Positions 1,304 to 16,811 of a stretch of DNA of 27,598 bases are shown piece by piece; the first letter of the stretch is position 1; each line of letters opens with the position of its first letter. Position numbers and translations under genes: made by a program. This DNA is from a virus. The DNA lies in IMG/VR virus record IMGVR_UViG_3300046532_004699, positions 1-27,598 of that record; one strand, 5' to 3'. The notes under the pieces are model-generated. The model was not told the DNA's origin, did no database searches, and worked only from the letters and a program-made list of their open reading frames with translations.

Positions 1304-4300
1304 ATGAAAACGATCCATCTTCACGGGGAACTAGGAGAACGCTTTGGTAAAAAGTGGAACTTTGCTATTGACACTCCGAACGAAGCGTTTAGTGCAATAC
1401 ATGCAAATACAAGCGGGTTTATTGAATATCTAAATAAGCAGGCGAGAAAGGATATTCAATATGTTGTCCTAACTAAAAACCCAGAGAAGCTTAAAACAGA
1501 AAAAGATTTCTTGAAAAACGCTATTACTTCCGATGGTTTAGGAATGCGCACTTCGAAGAAAGAGTTTCATATTATTCCTCTGATTCAGGGAGGGGGACCC
1601 GTAGTCGGAGCGTTTATTGTTGAAGTTCTTGTATATACCGCAGTTGCTATCGTTGTCGGCCTTATCGTGCAGGGCATTATGAAAATGCTATTTAAGCCTC
1701 CAGAGAAAAAGGATCCCGTAACGAGCAAGTCTTACTTGTTTTCTGGACCCCAAAACGTAGAAGCTCAAGGGATTCCAGTGCCCCTAGGTTACGGAAGGTT
1801 AAGAATCGGCTCTGTTGTCGTAGGGGCAAAAAAAAGCTCCCGCAGAGATAAGAATAGGAACACTTCTACAACCAGCCAGAACGAGGCGGCGAGGATGCTC
1901 CTAGAGTCCATCTCCGAATTTGAGTATTCGGAGTTGCTATGCGAGGGTCCAATTGAGGGATTTGTAAATATGAATGGGGGTCCAATATCTTCTCCAGAGG
2001 CCGTTACAGAGGGGATATTCTTTAATGAGGTTCCAGTTAAGAATACTCCAAAATACGGAGCTGGAATGGGCGACCCTAATTTCCTTAGGCCAGGAGGGGG
2101 AAGGGACGAATACGGAACTCTAAATTTCATCATGAACGAAGGAGTGGAGAGGGAAGATGGCTCCATGAAGATGAAGATGCCTCAAGTAAGGTTGGGACAT
2201 GCTAAAGAGTGGGATAGCTCCTTCTTTGGAGAGGAGGCGGCCGAAGCTTGGGTTGGCACCTCATCGACGTCTAATTATCAGACTATCTTATATGGCGGAG
2301 CGCCTTATAGAAAGTCGTCGGAGAGGCTTTTTGCCAGTGCGGACTCTACGGTAAACAGCACGGGAAATGAAAAAGGCGATCTCACAACTTTAAGGCTTAG
2401 TTTTGAGGAATCTATAGCTGGAGGAGCGAAGCTTTGGAGCCACAGCGTAATAAATAGTGATGTTGATCATATCAAAATTAGCTTGCGCTCCATGCTGAGT
2501 CGCCAAAAGGACAACGGTGAGGTTGCACCCAATCATATTATGTTTGGCATTCGGGTAAGGATAGGAGATAGGTATTATAACCCCTTGGAGCAGAGCCACT
2601 TCCCTCTGAGCTCTTATTTTGTTAATGCCAGTAAGGTTCGCAACGATAAGGGTGACTTGTGGAATATTATACCTAATCAAACGAGAATTCATGGTGGTGT
2701 TACCTTAGTGAAAGAAGGTCAAAAGATTCGATTTTTCTCCAATCACATTGGGCTTCCGCCGCCACGAGACGGAGAACCCCGTCGGATGCTTCCGACAACA
2801 AATGAAGGCGTTCTGCTTGAGGATAAGGAATATTTCGTGCGAAATGTCGAACGCGGCGAAGATATGAAGATTCAAGGTTACGGAACTACGGGAACGTCTA
2901 CTTTTGAAATATCTGAAACGATAGATGGTGCCGTTCTTACTTTTACCAAAAAGGGTGCGTGGACCAGTAAGTCCGTAGAAGCGTCCGAAAGGATCGGTGT
3001 CGCATCATATTGGGGGTTTGTGGAACCCTCTTGGAATCTTAGCTACAAAGGCACGCAAGAAATGAGGGATGGAAAAGGAGGCCTCAACCAGGTTGTTGGA
3101 AATATCCCTGATAATGCTTTTTTTCAACTAACGGGTTGTTGCACTTCAGAGTATGAATTTGACATAGAGTTTAATATTCCAAAGGTAGATGCTTCTGGAT
3201 ATAAAATACCTACGCTGGGCGAGGCTTCACAGATACAGATTTGCAAGTTCTCTTCGGAATTGGATCCAAGCGTAAAGTTTACTCCTGCAAGCATTAGCAA
3301 CACAGATGAGTTTGTTCTTCCAAAAAATTACAGTAACTTAAACAACCCCGAGCCGATAACAGTTCAAAGAGTTCATACTGGGACTTCTCAAAACTGGAGG
3401 GTTCTTGTGCTGTTGGAAGCCTGGGAAAAAAGGCAAGGCTCTCCCTTTCCCATTCCGAGGCACTGGTGGACAACTGAAAAACAGGTAAGCGAGGGTATAG
3501 GCGGAGTCAACCAGATAAAAAATCTAACCATTTCCTCCATAACTGAATCCGTGCAAGAGAAGTTCTTGTATCCTCACAGCGCTATGATTAAATTGTTTTT
3601 TGATAGCAAGAATTTCTCGCAAATCCCAACGAGGTCTTATCATTTAAAATTAAAAAAGGTGCTGGTCCCTTCTAATTATGACCCAGTTTCGAGAGTGTAT
3701 GATGGGCCATGGGACGGGCTGTTTCGTGGGCAGAGCACCTCATCCGCTTCCATTCATAGTGTTGATGATAGGGATTTAGCGTGGACAGATAACCCAGCTT
3801 GGATATTTTATGATTTGGTGACTAACACTAGGTATGGATTGGGCAAGTTTGGGGTGGGTGAGGCTAATGTGGATAAGTGGCAGTTATATAAAATTGCAAA
3901 ATATTGTGACGAATTAGTTGAGACTGGCTATCCCTATGAATCCCAAAGAAGAGGTTGCCTTATTAGCAATACCTTAGGTTTTCTTAAAATAAACACCTCG
4001 GACAACGGGGGCGTTGTCGGCTCAGACTGGGAGAATCATTATCCCACTGAGGGCAAATCCGCAATGATTGATTACGGCGCGAGGAATAAAATGCTGCGGA
4101 GGGAAGCTTTGAAATCTGGAGGGTCGGATGAGGTGTTCGCAGTTGCAGTGGAAAACCTTACTGCGGAAGAGTTTGAATTTGAGTTTGGGGATAAGTTTAG
4201 CTTTAAGGGGAAGAGGGTCGCCTTTTTCATAAATGAAAATAGCTCCGACGACGTGAGTGCATCTTCTGCTCAATTATTCGCGTGGACTGATGAGGGAAAT

Positions 4301-7222
4301 AATCCAATAGGTTCTGTTGAGGAAAGGGCTATTTTCTGGAGCAGTAAACAGGATAGAACGATTTACTTGAAAGGTCCAACTTTTGCGAATCACCCCCTGG
4401 CGAAGGAGTATATTGATGCAACCTTGAATGATTTTGATACATATGTTGACTACAGCGGAAACACAGACCTCTTGGCGGCATTTAATTCATATGCTGCAGG
4501 AACCCAAGAGGGGCAGGGGGGTGTGGCATCTGCGGCATATGGAGTTTGGAGTAAAGACTTACCTAAAGAGGGGTGGGGTTTTGCCCATTGGGAAAATCAC
4601 GGCCAATTCGAAACTACACGCCACATGCCAAAGAAGGACGTTCGAATCCGCGGCTCGTTTATAGTTGGATCGAATGCAAAATGCATTACTCAAAATAACT
4701 ACAACTTAGTTGAACCAAGGTTTTCTGCGAACATGTATATAACCGACAGGATGCAGGCCGTAAAGATACTGAATCACCTGGCCTCTATATTTAGGGGTAT
4801 AGTCGCTTATTCAGGAGGGAAAGTTCTTGCGATTCAGGACGCCTTAAAGGAGCCGATTCAACTATTTAATAATTCTAATGTTTCTCCAGACGGATTTTCC
4901 TATATGGGGACTGTGAAAAATAAAAGATTCACAGCTGTTTTGGTTCGATATAATGATAAGGATAATAACTTTAAGCCCGCCGTCGCGTATATGGAGGACG
5001 CTGATGCAATAAATAAATTTGGATATATAGAAAATGACACAATCGGCTTTGGGGTAACTTCTCCCAGTCAAGCTCAAAGGCTAGCCAAATGGATTCTTCA
5101 CACCTCCCAACTGGAAACTGAAACCGTAACTTTTGTCACAGGGCAAGAAGCTGGTTATCTTTTTCCTGGATCAATTATAGAAATTTCAGATGAATCTAGG
5201 GCTGGGTCGTGGAGAAGCGGTCGTCTCTTGGGGGTGTACCCAACAACAGAAACTAGCGACTCCAACGGAGAATCCATAACAGTCAATTCTTCTTATTTTG
5301 CTATAGATAAGACTCCTTCTGCTCCGACAACCGATAGGGTGGAGATTACCGTTCCTGCTGGTAGGGCGAACACTGCTCTACATAATCTAGACTCGAGAGC
5401 CGCTTCTGAAGGCAGCGCAGAAGATCAAGACTCTGAAATAGCAAATGTCCACGCCGCTCAGATGTTTAAATTTGACGGAATAATCTCCTCCTCTTCGAGT
5501 CAGCATACTACAAAGGGGCCTCGGGGACAGGATTCTATAATAAGAGACTTGAAGCTCAAGACGATAATCCGAGTTAAGTCTGAGGAAAACAAAATTACCT
5601 CCCCCTCTCACGGCTTAAAAATGGGGGATCGGGTAAGCTTTGTTTCTGAAGGAATTTTGCCCAAACCTTTAAGCAAATACAAGAGGGGGAGCACTGCCTA
5701 TTGGGTGGTGGGCGCCACGAAGCACACTTTCCAAGTTGGCTTGGAAAATCCTTTTCTACCTCCCGCGAAAAGCGCCGTGTATATGTCATTTTTTCCAGAA
5801 TATAAATCACTTCATACTGCAGAAAATCAGTGGGGATTACCCCTAACGTTCTCAGACCTAGGAAGGGACGAATTCAATAACGAAGGTGGGTATCACTATT
5901 GGTGTCCAGAAGATCCTAAAAAAACTAGGGATGCAGTCTCTCAGGTGATGATCGGATCTCCTTGGGCTATTAAGGGTAGGGTTGGAGTGTCGGAAGATTC
6001 TCCGCTTGTCCTCGCTGGAGGAACCTTAGATAAGCTTTTCGGAATTTTTGATGTTGTAGGAGGGGTTGATGCGGGATATGGTTGGTACGAGTCTACCTGG
6101 CTTGGGTATTTTCAGATCACTGGTGTCGAAGGGTGGGTTTATACAACCTCCATAGGTTGGATATATTCCAAGGAAATTTATAATAGAGACCCAGGTAGCG
6201 ACGATATATGGTTTTGGAGCACCTCGCTCGGGTGGATTTGGACTAATGATGATAATAAAAATACTTATTGGTACGTTAATGCGCGGGAGAGTCTCGACGC
6301 CTCAGCAGCTGTCTTCGCTGGATGGCTATATATCTCTAAGCTACCCTCTCACTTTTTCGTATTTGTGGATAATGCCAGGGAAGCATTTGTTACAAAAATG
6401 AACGAAGAAAAACGATCAAACTGGGTTGGAACCTCTCATCGTATAGGCGGGGGCAGTGAATCGTTTAGTCTTATCGGGTCTGTAGAAAATCTGGGGTATT
6501 GGTTCGCAGCCAGTCAGTGGAAAAAGGGAGACTCGACCAGCACCTCTCCAGCATCCCCGTCTGCTCTGTCTAAAGCGGCTCTGGCCGCTAGGGATCCAAT
6601 CTCTGCCATAGACGATATACCTATTGTGGAAATCTCCGCCTTGACGGACAGCCAGTCTGCCCTTGGAAGTTATTCGATAAAAATTAGCACTTATAATCCT
6701 GTGGGATTGGTTGGGAACTTGCATAAATTGGAAACTGGGGACGAGATTAGAATGAATGGAACTGATTCTTCATTGTATTTTGACTCAGATAGCCAAGATT
6801 TGGATAATGAGTTGATTGGCTCTGACCCGAATCCTGATCCTCACCCTGGGAAATATTGGGTAATAGTTAGGCTTAATGAATACGAGTTCGAGTTGCAGGA
6901 TTCGTCTGTCGCCGCCAAGCTCATGGATGGGGCAACAATCTCAACTAAGGGCAGTATAAACAAGGAAAGGCGCCCAGAAATCTCCGTAGAAAGGAAGCTT
7001 CAGGGGCAGTTCTTTAGAACAATTTCCATTAAAGAGGCTTCTGGTGGTAAATATGAAGTAGCTGGACTTGAATACAACCCAGCGAAATTTGACTCGATTG
7101 ATAAAAAGACCGTAATCAAGAAGCCTTCTTTGCCTATGCCTCCGCAGGAGGACATGTCTCTCCCCGTCGCTCCAGACGATTTGAAACTAGTCGACTTAAG
7201 TTACAACACGAAAGCTCAATAG
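1304..7222 (+). CDS. Tail tip attachment protein: gpI-like domain fused to gpJ-like host specificity protein
   Basis: The 1972-aa baseplate hub protein has, in order: a gpI-like N terminus (residues 1-95, HLHGELGERFGKKWNF), a Gly- and Val-rich hydrophobic segment (about 97-130), and the start of J proper (SYLFSGPQN, IPVPLGYGRLRIG, about 143-170). The TIP-J core follows, with DNPAWIFYDLVTNTRYGLG near 829-850 and a hub segment near 1136-1181 with VLAIQD. PGSIIEISDES lies near 1287. Next come a first 'HGL-GD' module (1425-1479), a Trp-rich module (1589-1680), a second 'HkL-GD' module (1806-1868), and the J element FFRTISIKEASGGKYEVAGLEYNP. It ends inside a fibronectin type III-like domain (APDDLKLVDLSY) that seems to continue in the next ORF. 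In lambda, I and J are separate. The SD-like AAGGT lies 4 nt before the ATG. The role is receptor contact and DNA ejection, inferred from J. Confidence 0.88.
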   Translation: MKTIHLHGELGERFGKKWNFAIDTPNEAFSAIHANTSGFIEYLNKQARKDIQYVVLTKNPEKLKTEKDFLKNAITSDGLGMRTSKKEFHIIPLIQGGGPVVGAFIVEVLVYTAVAIVVGLIVQGIMKMLFKPPEKKDPVTSKSYLFSGPQNVEAQGIPVPLGYGRLRIGSVVVGAKKSSRRDKNRNTSTTSQNEAARMLLESISEFEYSELLCEGPIEGFVNMNGGPISSPEAVTEGIFFNEVPVKNTPKYGAGMGDPNFLRPGGGRDEYGTLNFIMNEGVEREDGSMKMKMPQVRLGHAKEWDSSFFGEEAAEAWVGTSSTSNYQTILYGGAPYRKSSERLFASADSTVNSTGNEKGDLTTLRLSFEESIAGGAKLWSHSVINSDVDHIKISLRSMLSRQKDNGEVAPNHIMFGIRVRIGDRYYNPLEQSHFPLSSYFVNASKVRNDKGDLWNIIPNQTRIHGGVTLVKEGQKIRFFSNHIGLPPPRDGEPRRMLPTTNEGVLLEDKEYFVRNVERGEDMKIQGYGTTGTSTFEISETIDGAVLTFTKKGAWTSKSVEASERIGVASYWGFVEPSWNLSYKGTQEMRDGKGGLNQVVGNIPDNAFFQLTGCCTSEYEFDIEFNIPKVDASGYKIPTLGEASQIQICKFSSELDPSVKFTPASISNTDEFVLPKNYSNLNNPEPITVQRVHTGTSQNWRVLVLLEAWEKRQGSPFPIPRHWWTTEKQVSEGIGGVNQIKNLTISSITESVQEKFLYPHSAMIKLFFDSKNFSQIPTRSYHLKLKKVLVPSNYDPVSRVYDGPWDGLFRGQSTSSASIHSVDDRDLAWTDNPAWIFYDLVTNTRYGLGKFGVGEANVDKWQLYKIAKYCDELVETGYPYESQRRGCLISNTLGFLKINTSDNGGVVGSDWENHYPTEGKSAMIDYGARNKMLRREALKSGGSDEVFAVAVENLTAEEFEFEFGDKFSFKGKRVAFFINENSSDDVSASSAQLFAWTDEGNNPIGSVEERAIFWSSKQDRTIYLKGPTFANHPLAKEYIDATLNDFDTYVDYSGNTDLLAAFNSYAAGTQEGQGGVASAAYGVWSKDLPKEGWGFAHWENHGQFETTRHMPKKDVRIRGSFIVGSNAKCITQNNYNLVEPRFSANMYITDRMQAVKILNHLASIFRGIVAYSGGKVLAIQDALKEPIQLFNNSNVSPDGFSYMGTVKNKRFTAVLVRYNDKDNNFKPAVAYMEDADAINKFGYIENDTIGFGVTSPSQAQRLAKWILHTSQLETETVTFVTGQEAGYLFPGSIIEISDESRAGSWRSGRLLGVYPTTETSDSNGESITVNSSYFAIDKTPSAPTTDRVEITVPAGRANTALHNLDSRAASEGSAEDQDSEIANVHAAQMFKFDGIISSSSSQHTTKGPRGQDSIIRDLKLKTIIRVKSEENKITSPSHGLKMGDRVSFVSEGILPKPLSKYKRGSTAYWVVGATKHTFQVGLENPFLPPAKSAVYMSFFPEYKSLHTAENQWGLPLTFSDLGRDEFNNEGGYHYWCPEDPKKTRDAVSQVMIGSPWAIKGRVGVSEDSPLVLAGGTLDKLFGIFDVVGGVDAGYGWYESTWLGYFQITGVEGWVYTTSIGWIYSKEIYNRDPGSDDIWFWSTSLGWIWTNDDNKNTYWYVNARESLDASAAVFAGWLYISKLPSHFFVFVDNAREAFVTKMNEEKRSNWVGTSHRIGGGSESFSLIGSVENLGYWFAASQWKKGDSTSTSPASPSALSKAALAARDPISAIDDIPIVEISALTDSQSALGSYSIKISTYNPVGLVGNLHKLETGDEIRMNGTDSSLYFDSDSQDLDNELIGSDPNPDPHPGKYWVIVRLNEYEFELQDSSVAAKLMDGATISTKGSINKERRPEISVERKLQGQFFRTISIKEASGGKYEVAGLEYNPAKFDSIDKKTVIKKPSLPMPPQEDMSLPVAPDDLKLVDLSYNTKAQ
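6068..6343 (+). other. Trp-rich 'GWxY' module in the J-like protein
   Basis: The encoded stretch has GWYESTWLGYFQ, GWVYTTSIGWIY, IWFWSTSLGWIWTN, TYWYVN and AGWLYISK: regularly spaced aromatic blocks of the form 'WLGyF..GWiY...GWiY...iWfws..lGWiWT..yWyv..WLY'. It lies between two 'HGL-GD' modules. From memory it resembles C-terminal modules of large Verrucomicrobiota surface proteins; not checked. Confidence 0.55.
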
Positions 7223-7223
7223 A

Positions 7224-10200
7224 ATGGAAAACATGCAAACTTCAATTGGGATAGGTTTTGACGTTAATGATGTAAAGTCTTCTTATGAAGTTATAGGCAC
7301 TTCAGATAATTATTCTTTCCAGGAAAAACTAGGAAGGGGAGGTTCGCTAGTTCTCTCTGAAGGGGAAAGATTTGAAAAGGCTATATCTTTGAAGGGTAAT
7401 TACGGTTATTTTAATGTTAGAGTTTTCGCCGTAAGCGATATAGGTATCCGATCCTCATTTATTGAATCGGGCATACATATTAACCCTCCCCAGTTCGATG
7501 ACACTTTTACTTTTTCAAAACTCGAAATCTCTAACCTTCCCAAAAATCCAACTGTAGGGTCTGCAATTGCGAATCTGCCAGAGCGTGAAAATAATATTCT
7601 CTCTGTTTCGTCTGAATATGTTGGCTCAGAAGTGCAATTTAACTGGGAGTTGACTCCTCCTCCTGGGCACTCTAGGGAGGGAACCTCTCTCTCGGACCAA
7701 CTCCTGTCTGATGATTTATTTGACAAATTCTCATTGGAGCTAAAAAACGAAGGGACTGGTACGCTGGGGAATTTAAACGAATGCCAATCTCTTGTTTCAT
7801 ACTTAAAAACCCAAGATATATCTGGGGCTTTTTCGAGCTACAAGAACTTCTCTTTGCTTTTGGATGAGCAATGTTTCCACGAACTCAATATCGACAGGGC
7901 TTTTTCCCTTAAAGTTGTCGCTCACGACGTTTTTGGAAATACCTCTACAGGGGTAATAACTGGAACAAACTACAAGCCAGTAATAAATACCTTCAGCTCT
8001 TCTGTTATTGATTCCATTGCTGTTTTTCAATGGGGTCTTTTTGATACAGATTCAGCAGGGGTTTATGTCGGTCAGTTGGGGCTTCCTTATGGCGCTAGCT
8101 TGTATGACCCAAAAAGCTTAAACAAAAGCTTAGATCATCTTAAATCTCTTCAAGGCGCAGAGGCATTTTCTGAGATGCGCACTTATGAGTCTGGGGAAGT
8201 TGCTTTATATTATGAAAATGTATACAAAGCCTCAGGAGACTTTGATGGCGCTGGAGTATTTAACCTTGCAGATTGGGATAATCTGGGACCTCCTATAGAG
8301 TATCATCATCAAACCTATCACCAAGATTCTGATGAAATTGCCCTAGAACAAAATTGGGGATGGTCTTATTGTTATGCTTTTCAGCCTGAAGACGGCTACG
8401 GAAGGGGAGAGGTACATAACTTAATGCAAGACGGGAATATAGCCACAGGGTCGACGCTGGGGCAATTTAGGTCTACTTTAACGATTGCAGATCTTCGCTT
8501 TAGTGAGAGCGCTGATTCTTTTGCGTTTAACTGGAAAGTTAAGGATGATTCAGATAATACTATCGACCTTAATCGTTATAGGTTTTTAACGGATAAATCT
8601 GCTGGTATCGCGCCCAGGGTATTGGGGCTTAGTGGCTCCCTCTTTGATGCTGACACGAATCTATTTCTCTCTGGATTAACACAGGGAACCACTCAAGACT
8701 ATAAGAGAAACACATTAAATATCGACAGCTTTGAGTATAAAAGAGAGCTAAATAATTTATTATATGGTACTGAAGGATGGCCTGGTGTTCCTCAAGCCTG
8801 GAGCTCTGCGGAATCATACTCTAGTGGGGATTTGGTTTTGGCTGATACTTTGTATGATATCTGGTCCGCAACTTCTGGCGTCGATTCCGACGTTTCCCCT
8901 TATGTGTCTCCAACGTATTCATCATGGAAATCTAGTGGAAATTATACCTACCAGTCCAGCCCGCTTTACTACGATGTTGTTTCACAAGGAGGTTCATTAT
9001 ATGCTCCTACTGGCACTGGGTCTAAGTATGTCATGGGGCCGCTGGGCAATAATGTAAGCGGCGTATATAATGAACTATTGGATTATGTATCTGGAGACAA
9101 GGTTATTTGCCCCCTGTTTGTTAATATTTATTCTTCTGGGGAGGAGTACGCCGTTGGAGATAAGGTTTTATATGAAGGTAACATGTATAAGTGCGGCGTT
9201 ACTCATGACCCTATCGATCCAGTTTCCCCAGGCGGGATTTATCCTCTGTATGTTGGAGTCGTAAAGGATTGGTGGTGGGCGGATCCATTCAGGGATGCTT
9301 ATTCTGACGTTTATTTATGTACTGGTGCGAATGGCACGGGATCTGTTAACCACCTATCTTTACCAAGTACTGGATATCGCCACTGGCATTGGGAGGTTCC
9401 TGAGACCTCTTCTGGCTGGGTTAAGATTATTGACGCTTATCCGCTATCAGCTAAGGAGTGGAGCGACAAAGTAGCTTATACGGCTGGAGACTTTGTTTCT
9501 TATTCTAATGATATATGGAGCGGAAGCAAGTATAGTGGGCCAATGTTCGCTAACGGAGCCCAGCCCCCCTCAGAAGGGTCTCTTTACTGGGACAATGAGC
9601 CATATGGAAACGATATAACTACCAGTCACCAAAAAGGCAATAAGGCTTACTTCTATAACTCTGTATATACCGCCTTAAGTGACAACCCAACTGGCTCCCC
9701 CATGAAGCCGATCCAAGGTCATTGGGGCGTAGACTCTCAATGGATGCCTTATTGGGAACAAGTACAACTTAACTCCAATGTTGTCTATAAACACTTAGCA
9801 ATCCCGCAAAGCGGAAAAAGAAGCGTTGGTTTTGAAATAGGAATTATTGATAGGGACGGAAAGCTCATTAGCTCTGAAAAAATCACTGCAGATAATCCCG
9901 CTCCAGCAATTCAGCAAGAGGGGTTTTCGGTAAATAGTCTAGAGGAAGCTGAAAAGGTCAAGTTTAACTTTAAGTACGCATTTGGACACAGGGAAAAAGT
10001 AACTAAAGTTGAGCTTTATAGATCATCTAGCGATTCAGATTTATCCATACTTGACTCAAACGGACTTCCTGGATCTGGAGCACCCACTTTTGTGCAATCT
10101 TATTTCGGAGGAGCAGAAAGGGATTTTGGTCAAAATATAACCCAAATAACTGACACTCCCCCCATAACTAACATCCAGGGAGAGGATCAAATTGTTTCGA

Positions 10201-13200: not shown

Positions 13201-16200
13201 CTGGTGGTGATGGTCGCTTTAATCCATATGGACCTGTTTTGGCCTATGACCAAGTAACGATGTTCGGCTTAAAGCCTGGCGAGGACTCCTATACCGTATT
13301 TTTAACCAACGAAAACGTAACCTTTAAAGCAAACGAAAAAGGAGAAATTTCCAATTCGGAGTTTGAGCTAGGAGCTACAGAGGCGAAATTTTTCCACGGA
13401 CTACAAGAATACAGCTACGGATATGTCGGACAAGCTAATACATTTGGCCTTAGTACTTCGTCCCCTGAACAAGGAGGGGCCCTCTTCAGTATCAATGGAG
13501 GAAAGGCAACTCCTACAAGTGTAACCCCCGACAATGGCACTGGTTTTGCAACTTTTACGTTTTTTGACAACACTTCCGATCTTACGTTTGAAAAGAAATA
13601 TACTTACACTGTAGTCTCTGAAGCTAGCGGCTCTAGAACCGCCTCCTTTGAGACTGCGACTCAGGCGTTTTCCTATAATCAAACTGGATCTCTTGATCCT
13701 GATACACAAAGTACGAAAATAACTGGTTCAGTTTTAGGTTTTACTGGGGTGCCGTATTATGATTTCATAACACCAACTGGAAGCATCTTGGGAACCTCAA
13801 CTAATACTTTTGAGTATTACCCCGCAGGGGGAGGAGGGAGAGTTCACGGAACGAACTTTGATACGATGCCAGAACTTATCAAGATGAATGTCAGGGACGG
13901 ATCTCCTGATGGTAAGGTGCTTGCTCAAGACCTCCTTACTATGTTTGGGGTTAAGCCAGGAGAAGACTCCTATACCGTATTTTTAACTAACGAGACTCAT
14001 GCTTTCCCAGCTAATTCAGCGGGAGTTGTAGCGCCGTCAGATTTACCATTTGGATCCACAGAGACGAGGTTTCTTAAGGGGAAGGTTCCATATAGCTATG
14101 GAACGGGCCCGAATACTTACACTATTTCAAATGTTGAATTGCATAACATCGCCTTTTCTCCCGCAGACGGAACTGCCGCTGGCACTAATAGAAAGTTTAC
14201 TCCAAGCTCTATAACTTCAAACATAGGCTCTGGGGTTTTTACGTTTAAGGATAATGCCAATAACCTAACTTTTGATAAGGCTTACACTTTTACAAAATCG
14301 TTGGATGGGGCAAGCGGAGAAGATGGAAAAACTGGGATGTCCCCAGTCTACAGAGGGAACTGGAAAAATGCTGAATCTTATTATGGAGACCCAGCTGGGA
14401 GGAGGGGGGATGTTGTCTACTATACGGGGACAGATTCGTATTACATAGCCGAACTTAGCCATACTAGCAGTGAACCTCCAAGCGCAGATAAAAGACCTAG
14501 CGCCTCAAGTATATACTGGAATCAATTTGGCGCAACATTCGATAGCGTCGCAACTGACCTACTATTATCTAAAGACGTTTTCGTCACCAACGAGCTCGTA
14601 ATGGGAGAGTATGACGCGAATAATCCGAGCCAAGGAGATGGCGGAACATTTAGAAGCGCAAACAAAAAAGAATTCGGAAGGGGTACAGGGTACTTTTTTA
14701 AGCATGGGGGACATAAAGATTATGAAGCTTATGTTGGAGGAACGTTTACTGGCGAACAAGATGTATATGGACTAACTACAGGATCTTATGTTGGGATAGG
14801 ATTTAGCGGTTATGGTCAGCCTGGAGAATCCGATGATCCGAGCGTGGGTTCGAATGGCGGCCATTATAATTATGATTTATCCTATGCGTGGGCGAATTAT
14901 GTTTTAGGGGGAAAGAAATCGGTTGGAGCGTTTGGGGCTGGACTCAGTTTATTTGATTGGGGCAGAACTCATTATTGGAGTTATTATAACGAATATAATC
15001 AGGGCGTTTCTAGATATATGCCCTTACATACTGGGGTTAAATTTGACATAGGGCATGATCATATATCTGAACACATGACCTTGTTTGATGGCATCTCTGG
15101 GGCTCTCAGGAAAGATTCGTATATTCGCTATGACGGAGCCAGGGGGAAGGTTGAAATAAAAGGAGCTTTTCAAAACAACTCTATTCAGGATTCGTCTATT
15201 GGGAGCAATATTACACAACTCCTTGAAAACAATTCTGATCCATTGGCTACGTTTATTGGCGGAGGATACAATAACGAAATTCTAATGACCCAGGACGGGC
15301 TTGGTTATGATAGCGTAGGCTCTTCGATTGTTGGCGGCGGATCAGGGGTTATCCAAGGAAGGTTCTCTTTAATTGGTAATGGATTTGGAAATGAATGTTA
15401 CGATAACTTTTCGGTAATTGGAGGAGGGCTTTATAATACTATGCCCGCGAAAACCCCAAGTAATGAAGGGGGGAATTTCATTGGGGCAGGATCTTATAAC
15501 TCAATAAGCGGGGCAAGTTTCTCTTCTATCATTGCGGGGACAGCTAATTCCATACAAAGGTCTAACAGCTCTTCCATTGGAGGCGGAAATAATAATTTTA
15601 TTATCGGCGAGTCTGGCTCTGTCCGATTTGATGAAGATAATAGCCCTATGGGGCATAGGTTCCTTGGGCATTTTGGCGCTAAGGAAAGCTTGGGGGTTAG
15701 TAGTGAAGCTCCTGGCTGGGTAACGGGAATGTGGTTTCCCGCTTCTGGCAGTCGGGCTGGGGTTCAAAATTGGGGAAATGATATGTGGGCTGGAAACCAA
15801 CTAAGGGGATTGGCTTCATCTGCATGGGCCTACCATTCGGACTTTAGCTGGATCTATATTGCTGAAAATACTTTTACTGGACAGGCTTATTCAACTTCCG
15901 CAATGAACGGTATGACGATTTGGTTACAAGATCCAGTTGCGACGTCCCCCGATGCAGGCCCAGGGTGGTGGCACTTTTATAGAGAATCAACCTTGTCTGT
16001 TGGGATATTTAATGGCTTAACCCCATCTCACTCACATTGGGTTTTCGAACACCCCTCATACGCCCCAGCGCAAAACTGTAATACGGGAGAAGGGGTAATT
16101 GCTTATTCCTATGGGGAAGAAAAGTATTATGCCCTACAGGCGGGGTCTGATGGTAAAGTTTATTGGAATGACCCGCTATCTCCATACCCCAAGAACAACT

Positions 16201-16220
16201 GGCAAGTATTCTGTAACTAA
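7224..16220 (+). CDS. Giant tail fibre / J C-terminal half with FN3, CBM-like, Ig-like repeat and beta-roll modules
   Basis: The 2998-aa fibre continues the J protein. It opens in the middle of an FN3-like domain (SSYEVIG, FNVRVFAVSDIG) with no N-terminal cap. Later modules: four short CBM5/12-like W...YxxGDxV elements (about 523-837); FN3-like domains (about 1050-1203); the J/DUF1983-type central-fibre stretch IQNAAITNLKI then TADKITAGEI (1370-1397); three Ig-like tandem units (about 1602-2361) with the mark VFLTNE; a collagen-like GASGEDGKTG; another CBM-like YRGNW module; YadA-head-like beta-roll repeats (about 2676-2796) of the kind SIGGGNNN; and a Trp-rich C terminus (about 2810-2998). 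No S74 domain is present; it lies in the next ORF in the same frame. There is no clear SD before the ATG, which starts 1 nt after the J stop. The protein is probably trimeric and binds host glycans (inferred from module types). Confidence 0.85.
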   Translation: MENMQTSIGIGFDVNDVKSSYEVIGTSDNYSFQEKLGRGGSLVLSEGERFEKAISLKGNYGYFNVRVFAVSDIGIRSSFIESGIHINPPQFDDTFTFSKLEISNLPKNPTVGSAIANLPERENNILSVSSEYVGSEVQFNWELTPPPGHSREGTSLSDQLLSDDLFDKFSLELKNEGTGTLGNLNECQSLVSYLKTQDISGAFSSYKNFSLLLDEQCFHELNIDRAFSLKVVAHDVFGNTSTGVITGTNYKPVINTFSSSVIDSIAVFQWGLFDTDSAGVYVGQLGLPYGASLYDPKSLNKSLDHLKSLQGAEAFSEMRTYESGEVALYYENVYKASGDFDGAGVFNLADWDNLGPPIEYHHQTYHQDSDEIALEQNWGWSYCYAFQPEDGYGRGEVHNLMQDGNIATGSTLGQFRSTLTIADLRFSESADSFAFNWKVKDDSDNTIDLNRYRFLTDKSAGIAPRVLGLSGSLFDADTNLFLSGLTQGTTQDYKRNTLNIDSFEYKRELNNLLYGTEGWPGVPQAWSSAESYSSGDLVLADTLYDIWSATSGVDSDVSPYVSPTYSSWKSSGNYTYQSSPLYYDVVSQGGSLYAPTGTGSKYVMGPLGNNVSGVYNELLDYVSGDKVICPLFVNIYSSGEEYAVGDKVLYEGNMYKCGVTHDPIDPVSPGGIYPLYVGVVKDWWWADPFRDAYSDVYLCTGANGTGSVNHLSLPSTGYRHWHWEVPETSSGWVKIIDAYPLSAKEWSDKVAYTAGDFVSYSNDIWSGSKYSGPMFANGAQPPSEGSLYWDNEPYGNDITTSHQKGNKAYFYNSVYTALSDNPTGSPMKPIQGHWGVDSQWMPYWEQVQLNSNVVYKHLAIPQSGKRSVGFEIGIIDRDGKLISSEKITADNPAPAIQQEGFSVNSLEEAEKVKFNFKYAFGHREKVTKVELYRSSSDSDLSILDSNGLPGSGAPTFVQSYFGGAERDFGQNITQITDTPPITNIQGEDQIVSNYYKILPYDDFGSGYEFDVSEWLVSIGESPGVLCYPKTLNNKDPSVPPGPILRLASGDMPGAPSGFSGSSSFENYFLKWSIPPVHPHLSPERQPNDLSHYELWSTSKGAAGNDAQDYLYFQSEASKLTHYSNTGYRRILGDVSSVGLVPNTQVDASEGITNATNILNVDASSPYVNISVKGSSNEKRYFWVRAVDQAGNKGPFTGSANLVGSDVLGLDAGTLGQVKTTDVADFEQNITKTFPNTLALVPTNPFENEDPNSNSISWPQHFLYQDGDGYVVSAGNTDDSYVYWNSTGDNVVALTSSQSGELGLLPSQTINSSNPLRNIVWSGRYDSIDRHPAGNNAQASVLGENNFIIARNSNGLAVPMWHAFANASIGTAHIQNAAITNLKIHTMTADKITAGEIHSEDVQIGGTGQIRSAGFEGLSAPVGQQGFALSGDGSFIFAGDTGRLYFDNGVLTIEGIIREKDGRPFTMTTVRAEPSMFKYTPAGVADGPSYIDIYAQFQNVDAHLVENDIKWAIEGGPTLNPFSLGFSDSPSVGQEISGFTYEGYNATSMEAHATLTLTGFNAMISGLPPSSSRSDSVTVYVSGFETRAIHAVTVYKNEDGEAGVTANINAGTQAFAYGTNPADGLIGPASVEVTGESFKSFGDIYYQFYVTGGEVQNSNSDTTITYTPPTGFNQMPEKIELIIRDGATNGPILAKDAFTMYGVKAGEDAYSVFLTNEAHTFPANENGDVLSSNLSDGSTEIRFFRGDDQYTYSNGGSAANTYSVASNTNGITLSSATVDNQLKLTPTDVTSSKGSVDFTITDNKYGDSFDKSYTFSVSSVGSGARSVALASSSQAFSYSMQSLTRAEPTGLLDPDDQYQTVTATAEGFTGTPYYIFSTGFSGDMEASHRGPWRSHWLPHHTYYPQKLFDDMPETLEARAYDGIQWTGTLLWDGDRSLSPDDVFHFYNSNMNPHSTSWDSDLGHYVGEGTGWMYQNPYPTLKNPLIPYYSLWNAAGGDGRFNPYGPVLAYDQVTMFGLKPGEDSYTVFLTNENVTFKANEKGEISNSEFELGATEAKFFHGLQEYSYGYVGQANTFGLSTSSPEQGGALFSINGGKATPTSVTPDNGTGFATFTFFDNTSDLTFEKKYTYTVVSEASGSRTASFETATQAFSYNQTGSLDPDTQSTKITGSVLGFTGVPYYDFITPTGSILGTSTNTFEYYPAGGGGRVHGTNFDTMPELIKMNVRDGSPDGKVLAQDLLTMFGVKPGEDSYTVFLTNETHAFPANSAGVVAPSDLPFGSTETRFLKGKVPYSYGTGPNTYTISNVELHNIAFSPADGTAAGTNRKFTPSSITSNIGSGVFTFKDNANNLTFDKAYTFTKSLDGASGEDGKTGMSPVYRGNWKNAESYYGDPAGRRGDVVYYTGTDSYYIAELSHTSSEPPSADKRPSASSIYWNQFGATFDSVATDLLLSKDVFVTNELVMGEYDANNPSQGDGGTFRSANKKEFGRGTGYFFKHGGHKDYEAYVGGTFTGEQDVYGLTTGSYVGIGFSGYGQPGESDDPSVGSNGGHYNYDLSYAWANYVLGGKKSVGAFGAGLSLFDWGRTHYWSYYNEYNQGVSRYMPLHTGVKFDIGHDHISEHMTLFDGISGALRKDSYIRYDGARGKVEIKGAFQNNSIQDSSIGSNITQLLENNSDPLATFIGGGYNNEILMTQDGLGYDSVGSSIVGGGSGVIQGRFSLIGNGFGNECYDNFSVIGGGLYNTMPAKTPSNEGGNFIGAGSYNSISGASFSSIIAGTANSIQRSNSSSIGGGNNNFIIGESGSVRFDEDNSPMGHRFLGHFGAKESLGVSSEAPGWVTGMWFPASGSRAGVQNWGNDMWAGNQLRGLASSAWAYHSDFSWIYIAENTFTGQAYSTSAMNGMTIWLQDPVATSPDAGPGWWHFYRESTLSVGIFNGLTPSHSHWVFEHPSYAPAQNCNTGEGVIAYSYGEEKYYALQAGSDGKVYWNDPLSPYPKNNWQVFCN
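8790..9735 (+). other. Cluster of short CBM5/12-like modules in the giant fibre
   Basis: Four copies of a 'W/Y...Y..GD.V.y.g..y.a' pattern are seen: AESYSSGDLVLADTLYDIWSA, GEEYAVGDKVLYEGNMYKC, VAYTAGDFVSYSNDIWSG and KGNKAYFYNSVYTAL. A fifth copy is at about 14348-14530 (YRGNW...RRGDVVYYTGTDSYYIA). The pattern is that of small carbohydrate-binding modules common in chitinases and phage fibres. Glycan binding is an inference. Confidence 0.5.
12028..14308 (+). repeat. Three tandem Ig-like two-domain units in the giant fibre
   Basis: Units begin near 12028, 12690 and 13628. Each has a 'tQAFsY' domain, a 'MP' turn with an 'RDG' or 'YDG' loop, then 'GvKpGEDsYtVFLTNE..tF.AN..G', a 'GsTE.rF..G...YsYG' strand and a closing 'T..n.tFdK.YTF'. 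Units 2 and 3 share a stretch of over 20 identical bases in the EDSYTVFLT part, suggesting recent duplication or gene conversion. Unit 2 has about 100 extra residues rich in Trp, His and Tyr (12853-13255). Such repeats usually act as spacers in tail fibres. Confidence 0.75.
15250..15612 (+). other. YadA-head-like beta-roll repeats
   Basis: Short repeats of the form 'siIGgG..N.I.g' are seen: FIGGGYNNEI, SIVGGGSGVIQG, SLIGNGFGNE, SVIGGGLYNT, FIGAGSYNSISG, SIIAGTANSIQ and SIGGGNNNFIIG. These form left-handed trimeric beta-rolls in adhesin heads and phage fibres. The same repeat type resumes after the stop codon in the S74 ORF (16260-16440). Confidence 0.65.
15650..16220 (+). other. Trp-rich C-terminal module of the giant fibre
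   Basis: About 190 residues follow the beta-roll: HRFLGHFGAKES, APGWVTGMWF, SSAWAYHSDFSWIYI, GMTIWLQDP, GPGWWHFYRES, HWVFEHP, NNWQVFCN. The spacing of aromatic pairs is like the module at 6068-6343. It ends at the TAA that separates the fibre from the beta-roll/S74 ORF, so it sits between two parts of one beta-roll. Confidence 0.5.
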
Positions 16221-16235
16221 AGTGTAATATATTGT

Positions 16236-16811
16236 ATGAGCGAAAATCCTACATTCATTGGTATAGACCAAGGCCCCTTTGGTGATTATTATAACGATAC
16301 CAACGCTATATTGTGCGGACAAGACAACACTATTGAAGGCTGCCAAAGATCCACCATCATTGGCGCTAATAATTATTTGAGCGGGACATATAACTGTCAT
16401 GTTATTGGTGATTATATAGGCACGATTTATCCCGCAACAAGCAACGCTCTTCATGTTGCTACCCAGAATGGGTTATTTTGTTATGGGGACGTTGTGTCGT
16501 TTTCTGCATCGGATGAAAGACTAAAGGATGATATATCTCCAATCAAGGACCCCTTAAGCAAGGTAACATCCTTGGACGCTATAGAGTTCAGGTGGAACTC
16601 GAAACAAGAGACTCACAAGGGTCGGGATATAGGTCTCGTAGCTCAGCAGGTCGAATCTATTGCTCCAGAAATCGTATCCGAAAGAATGGATGGGTATAAG
16701 GGAGTCAAATATGAAAAGGTGGTGCCTCTACTGGTTGGGGCAATCAAGGAACAGCAGAAAATAATAGAGTCTCTGGAGGGAAGAATAGAAGACTTGGAAT
16801 CTATTCGTTAA
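16236..16811 (+). CDS. Fibre tip with beta-roll repeats and peptidase S74 intramolecular chaperone
   Basis: In this 191-aa protein, residues 1-75 carry beta-roll repeats (NAILCGQDNTIEG, STIIGANNYLSG) like those at the end of the upstream fibre. Residues 88-191 are a peptidase S74 chaperone: SASDERLKDDI holds the Ser-Lys dyad (S92, K97), followed by the family's EFRW, DIGLVAQQVE, VKYEKVVPLLVGAIKEQQ and a C-terminal coiled coil. Known S74 domains trimerise phage fibres and then cut themselves off just before the Ser, so cleavage between A91 and S92 is expected. The ORF has the same frame as the fibre, separated by TAA and five sense codons, and there is no SD before the ATG. It may be a readthrough extension of the fibre or a separately made partner. 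The 3' end overlaps the convergent minus-strand gene by 11 nt. Confidence 0.88.
   Translation: MSENPTFIGIDQGPFGDYYNDTNAILCGQDNTIEGCQRSTIIGANNYLSGTYNCHVIGDYIGTIYPATSNALHVATQNGLFCYGDVVSFSASDERLKDDISPIKDPLSKVTSLDAIEFRWNSKQETHKGRDIGLVAQQVESIAPEIVSERMDGYKGVKYEKVVPLLVGAIKEQQKIIESLEGRIEDLESIR

Follow-up and report, generated by a model that had tools for sequence, protein, structure and literature searches.

A tail-fibre gene that ends in a stop codon shortly ahead of an ORF for an S74 chaperone raises the question whether a fibre has been broken at this locus or whether the phage builds its fibre tip from two genes. The locus lies in an IMG/VR virus record 27,598 bases long (the whole of which is called the window below), where the fibre ORF follows a lambda-like tail module (gpL-like, 25–963; gpK-like, 956–1297; J-like hub, 1304–7222). 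The initial annotation described a beta-roll followed by a Trp-rich module, a TAA and a resumed roll, and proposed that a normally C-terminal module with its own stop had recently been inserted into the roll, the chaperone being produced by stop readthrough or re-initiation. The succession of roll, Trp-rich module, stop and an ATG exactly five codons further on, in the frame of the fibre ORF, is confirmed by the ORF coordinates (Table 1), and the premise that S74 is usually a covalent part of the fibre is right, S74 chaperones being described as intramolecular. The history that we reconstruct is a different one: the locus is probably a conserved two-gene fibre tip, exchanged as a cassette and provided with a trimeric partner of fission origin that is translated on its own and cleaves itself, rather than a damaged fibre.

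Table 1. Features of the fibre tip locus (window coordinates).
Feature	Position	Strand	Remarks
Fibre ORF, 2998 aa	7224..16220	+	Phage-tail-like in its N-terminal half, followed by carbohydrate-binding-like segments in repeat; ends in the roll and the Trp-rich part; lacks S74
Beta-roll, conserved anchor of the distal fibre	15252 to about 15612	+	~15-residue rungs, motif G-G-x-x-N-x-I
Trp-rich variable C-terminal module of fibre	15613..16217	+	No Pfam match; homologous modules in relatives
TAA stop of fibre ORF	16218..16220	+	Identical stop in near-copy contig L002/L038
Stop-to-start gap, 15 nt	16221..16235	+	Neither length nor frame kept in relatives
Separate roll-S74 gene, 191 aa	16236..16811	+	Conserved in 18 aligned relatives
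Leader of S74 protein, variable	16236..16301	+	Often Pro-rich in relatives (alignment)
Three roll rungs of S74 protein	16302..16409	+	Motif as in the last rungs of the fibre; model strands at 24–57
Ser92 codon, predicted autocleavage site	16509..16511	+	Lys97 codon at 16524–16526
S74 chaperone domain and C-terminal helix	16509..16808	+	PF13884; pLDDT ~90 or more across most of the domain
Convergent neighbour gene, 292 aa	16801..17679	-	Present in all relatives; 53–100% identity in the 80 contigs kept; synteny marker

The architecture of the fibre ORF is common to the relatives. Its roll (60% mean identity in an alignment of 17 phages) may be a trimeric left-handed beta-roll of the kind seen in YadA heads, with rungs of ~14–15 residues: a rung periodicity shows both in sequence and in the AlphaFold model (a strand every ~15 residues, pLDDT 55–74), the Pfam roll match (PF21300) being weak and the model that of a monomer. 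The part that follows contains 12 W within 221 aa counted from 15555 and is the probable receptor-binding tip of the fibre; its AlphaFold model is poor (pLDDT mostly <50), and for the roll and the Trp-rich part together the models do not allow a fold to be assigned. Further upstream, a short segment (aa 636–661, window 9129–9206) matched carbohydrate-binding module family 5/12, barely over the Pfam cut-off.

The Pfam scan of the second ORF returned Peptidase_S74 (PF13884; aa 92–147, E-value 4e-14, 53 bits against a curated cut-off of 22) and a weak beta-roll, and nothing else; the DUF4376/gp27 family was not among the matches. The fold was recovered in a confident AlphaFold model, for which Foldseek identified the ICA domains of MyRF (7dc3, E-value 9e-6) and endoNF (3gw6, E-value 7e-3). 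Ser92 and Lys97 are invariant in 19 of 19 aligned sequences, and the same +5 spacing is found in the catalytic pairs S587/K592 of MyRF and S911/K916 of endoNF (PMC8326128). By sequence and by predicted fold, the 191-aa product is thus a member of the S74 chaperone family, while the trait that defines this family, a covalent link to the fibre, is absent from the window and from about 40 relatives, in which only a short roll of its own is attached to S74. The gene is under purifying selection, with dN/dS mostly between 0.05 and 0.2 for pairs of relatives in both gene parts; higher values came from a few pairs that straddle an exchanged segment (see below) or show very few changes. The idea that the fibre roll resumes after the stop needs qualification: the ORF does start where it was said to, but the rungs appear only from about aa 23, after the leader, and they match the fibre roll modestly in profile-profile comparison (E-value 1e-4, probability 58).

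An assembly error as the cause of the split was ruled out by an independent, near-identical contig from a different metagenome (IMGVR_UViG_3300047669_002593, L002/L038), which has the same TAA and spacing and a fibre of 99.8% identity. Within the Trp-rich module, an in-frame gap of four residues (~15975–16010, RESTLSVGIF vs RESGIF) sets this contig apart from the window. Among 42 distinct S74 starts, the distance to the preceding stop ranges from -14 to +31 nt, ATGA overlaps included, and the junctions fall into frames 0, 1 and 2 in 6, 24 and 12 cases, so that the in-frame share does not exceed chance. Since all three frames occur, neither readthrough nor frameshifting can be the mechanism shared by these phages; of the two routes offered by the initial annotation, only re-initiation agrees with the junctions, as does independent initiation. 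It is true that the ATG at 16236 lacks a Shine-Dalgarno sequence, but this is uninformative because the fibre ORF and most other genes of the window lack one as well, as do nearly all S74 genes in 20 relatives.

Relatives were collected by scanning viral contigs with the S74 gene and with the neighbour gene, and the phage group was defined by the same convergent neighbour together with two glycosyltransferase genes. A trypsin-like protease gene (PF13365, 21404–22333, minus strand) adjoins the glycosyltransferase genes of the window; it is unmatched in the relatives' flanks that were compared and is possibly lineage-specific. In 49 rows, the window and its near-copy counted in, the fibre region is present and could be classified. 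The roll fibre and the roll-S74 protein are separate ORFs in 41 of them (including L199, where another domain replaces the S74 end), and most split relatives have a Trp-rich fibre C-terminus. They supply the kind of refutation by relatives that the initial annotation itself had named for recent insertion. The remaining 8 rows have a continuous chain, 4 with a roll and 4 as a roll-less fibre-S74 protein. Relatives with an unbroken roll-S74 chain do exist: L139/L227, L217, L222 and L230 encode roll, insert, roll and S74 in a single chain of >3,300 aa. In a tree of three neighbour genes (79 rows), these four contigs cluster with good support beside the split clade, in which the earliest branch leads to the window and its near-copy. 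The arrangement in the window looks like a broken-up form of the roll-insert-roll-S74 chain; the inserts of the sister chains resemble the Trp-rich module in place and aromatic content, and no match between them was detected with the module's profile. The split and continuous states require at least three changes on the tree, two of which led back to a fused fibre-S74 protein, in this case devoid of the roll (L174/L175 and L177), and the split probably goes back to one old gene fission near the base of the group, reversed twice.

Comparison of close relatives revealed how the tip changes. Up to where the fibre roll ends, L042 and L044 share 98.6% identity, and from just upstream of the S74 domain onward 99.0%, while ~0.9 kb in between (L042 7326–8207) is unrelated in the two phages: a clean swap that covers the Trp-rich module and the fibre stop as well as the start, leader and rungs of the S74 gene. 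A similar divergent block separates L053 from L062. What these phages exchange is a single cassette, made up of the fibre tip and the front of the S74 gene and flanked by conserved arms, the fibre roll on one side and the S74 domain on the other; this suggests a two-piece exchangeable tip and not a gene that was broken recently. For 25 distinct phages, divergence of the Trp-rich module correlates with that of the N-terminal part of the S74 protein (r 0.66; partial 0.55 after accounting for the neighbour gene and the S74 domain), while the partial correlation with the S74 domain itself is 0.06 (p 0.2). This co-divergence supports contact between the two proteins, with linkage contributing; physical linkage alone could also be the cause of the co-exchange. 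A second exchange block, with near-identical flanks, is found in the fibre shaft when L044 (5000–7000) is compared with L045.

The gene borders are not fixed with respect to the modules. Most relatives resemble the window in that the fibre itself carries the Trp-rich module; in L050, L054, L057, L058 and L059 the fibre stops at the roll, and the module forms a stand-alone gene followed by two S74 genes, while in L056 it is joined to the S74 gene. Such arrangements switch between close relatives (e.g. L194 vs L197). By the logic of domain fusion, modules that change partners in this way would be expected to work in one structure. In the tandem S74 genes (L050 3749–8829; L054 6383–8842; L056–L059), the first has a leader and up to ~900 aa from the rungs to S74, and the second is short and leaderless. 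L031 (= L061) carries big aromatic-rich inserts within the loops of the fibre roll itself, and its second gene (5944–7182) keeps the rungs but ends in a different domain where the other phages have S74.

We propose that the fibre chain terminates past its own Trp-rich tip module and that the S74 gene would be translated separately, by termination-reinitiation or by ordinary initiation independent of a Shine-Dalgarno sequence. The S74 part may then trimerise the product and fold its roll; self-cleavage at Ser92 would leave a trimeric piece of ~91 residues, which may dock non-covalently where the fibre roll ends, alongside the Trp-rich module, as a cap or extension. The arrangement most likely originated by fission of a continuous roll-insert-roll-S74 fibre near the base of the group. 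Since then, the gene borders have shifted from one fixed module border to another, and exchanges have moved the Trp-rich module together with the front of the S74 gene as a cassette. That S74 works between chains in this way, a short trimeric roll cap non-covalently completing a fibre that ends at its receptor-binding module, is a more tentative part of the proposal, which we regard as a real possibility.

The main rival explanation sees in the S74 gene a pure helper that folds or trimerises the fibre in trans and is absent from the virion, like the chaperones of T4 or of phages V22 and A5. The position of the gene directly behind the fibre is the one known from these systems, and V22 gp27 and A5 gp9, products of separate genes, resemble S74-type domains (PMC7289586, PMC10579305); a helper, however, would hardly need the roll rungs and the self-cleavage dyad which this protein retains, and the long stretches (hundreds of residues) that separate the rungs from S74, or the tandem S74 genes, in some relatives would be superfluous for it, so that we consider this reading unlikely. 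Still less probable is that the gene encodes a small fibre or tip protein in its own right, assembled without regard to the preceding fibre and adjacent to it only by operon order. Its self-sufficient design of roll plus chaperone and the differing middles of the tandem genes would suit such a protein, while the union of the same kinds of modules in the continuous chains of the sister clade, the movement of the Trp-rich module among fibre, own gene and S74 gene, and the exchange of the S74 front together with the fibre tip all tie it to the fibre.

The recent insertion of a stop-bearing module, with the chaperone still fused to the fibre through readthrough, is scarcely credible and already contradicted: the shared frame and close spacing of the two ORFs in the window, together with the continuous chain of sister phages, speak for it, but with 6 of 42 junctions in frame and several of them overlapping, the in-frame continuation that readthrough implies is not kept in the relatives, and the split is common to the whole clade, about 40 relatives being divided alike. 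A further alternative concerns the history only and is compatible with the same mechanism: the separate genes may be ancestral and the sister clade may have fused them. Because the outgroup phages lack S74, the choice between fission and fusion at the base rests on parsimony. Continuous roll-S74 chains occur also in unrelated phages (L137, L144, L149, L155, L161 and L166) and the fused fibre-S74 form is the usual one in known phages; fission is therefore favoured, and ancestral separation appears unlikely. Thermus phage phiYS40 and Synechococcus phage S-8S56 were dropped as examples of continuous roll-S74 chains, both lacking the roll.

The phage group to which the window belongs is uncultured and apparently marine. 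Neither the Trp-rich module nor the roll nor the neighbour gene has an isolated-phage homologue among 50,697 phage records, and searches of bacterial genomes gave only distant S74 matches, mostly in Bacteroidota, so that no host was assigned. Under the two-gene reading, the continuous, split and re-fused versions found among close relatives constitute a natural series for studying which attachment the chaperone requires. The S74 domain itself, separate IMC-like chaperones (V22 and A5) and fibre tips as variable islands are already known. In the open-access papers searched we found no description of a separately encoded S74, nor of the combination reported here, a separate S74 gene that retains its dyad within an exchangeable two-gene tip.

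The known carriers of the S74 or intramolecular chaperone domain (ICA/IMC, PF13884) include endosialidases, T5 pb1, the GA-1 neck appendage and MyRF. The window protein is like them in domain and fold, Ser-Lys dyad, C-terminal position and long helix, and unlike them in that its S74 stands in a gene of its own behind three rungs and does not close the fibre chain. Fibre assembly proteins such as T4 gp38/gp57A and Mu Tfa likewise come from helper genes associated with fibre genes; they are not known to contain S74 or a self-cleavage dyad. Alteromonas phages V22 (gp27) and A5 (gp9) have intermolecular fibre chaperones that are encoded right behind the fibre, as is the chaperone gene in the window, and form IMC-like caps (PMC10579305). 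These chaperones are DUF4376-like, lack roll rungs and are not known to cleave themselves, whereas the window encodes a true S74 with its dyad. Finally, in the metaviromic islands of marine phages close relatives vary in the fibre C-terminus, which serves host recognition and in one case has a YadA domain (PMC3909814). Unlike in those islands, the block exchanged here crosses a gene border and takes in the front of a second gene, which places the tip-exchange site of these phages between two conserved parts, the roll and the chaperone domain. If our reading is true, a gene border inside the tip would allow the receptor module and its matching cap to be exchanged together while shaft and chaperone are kept.
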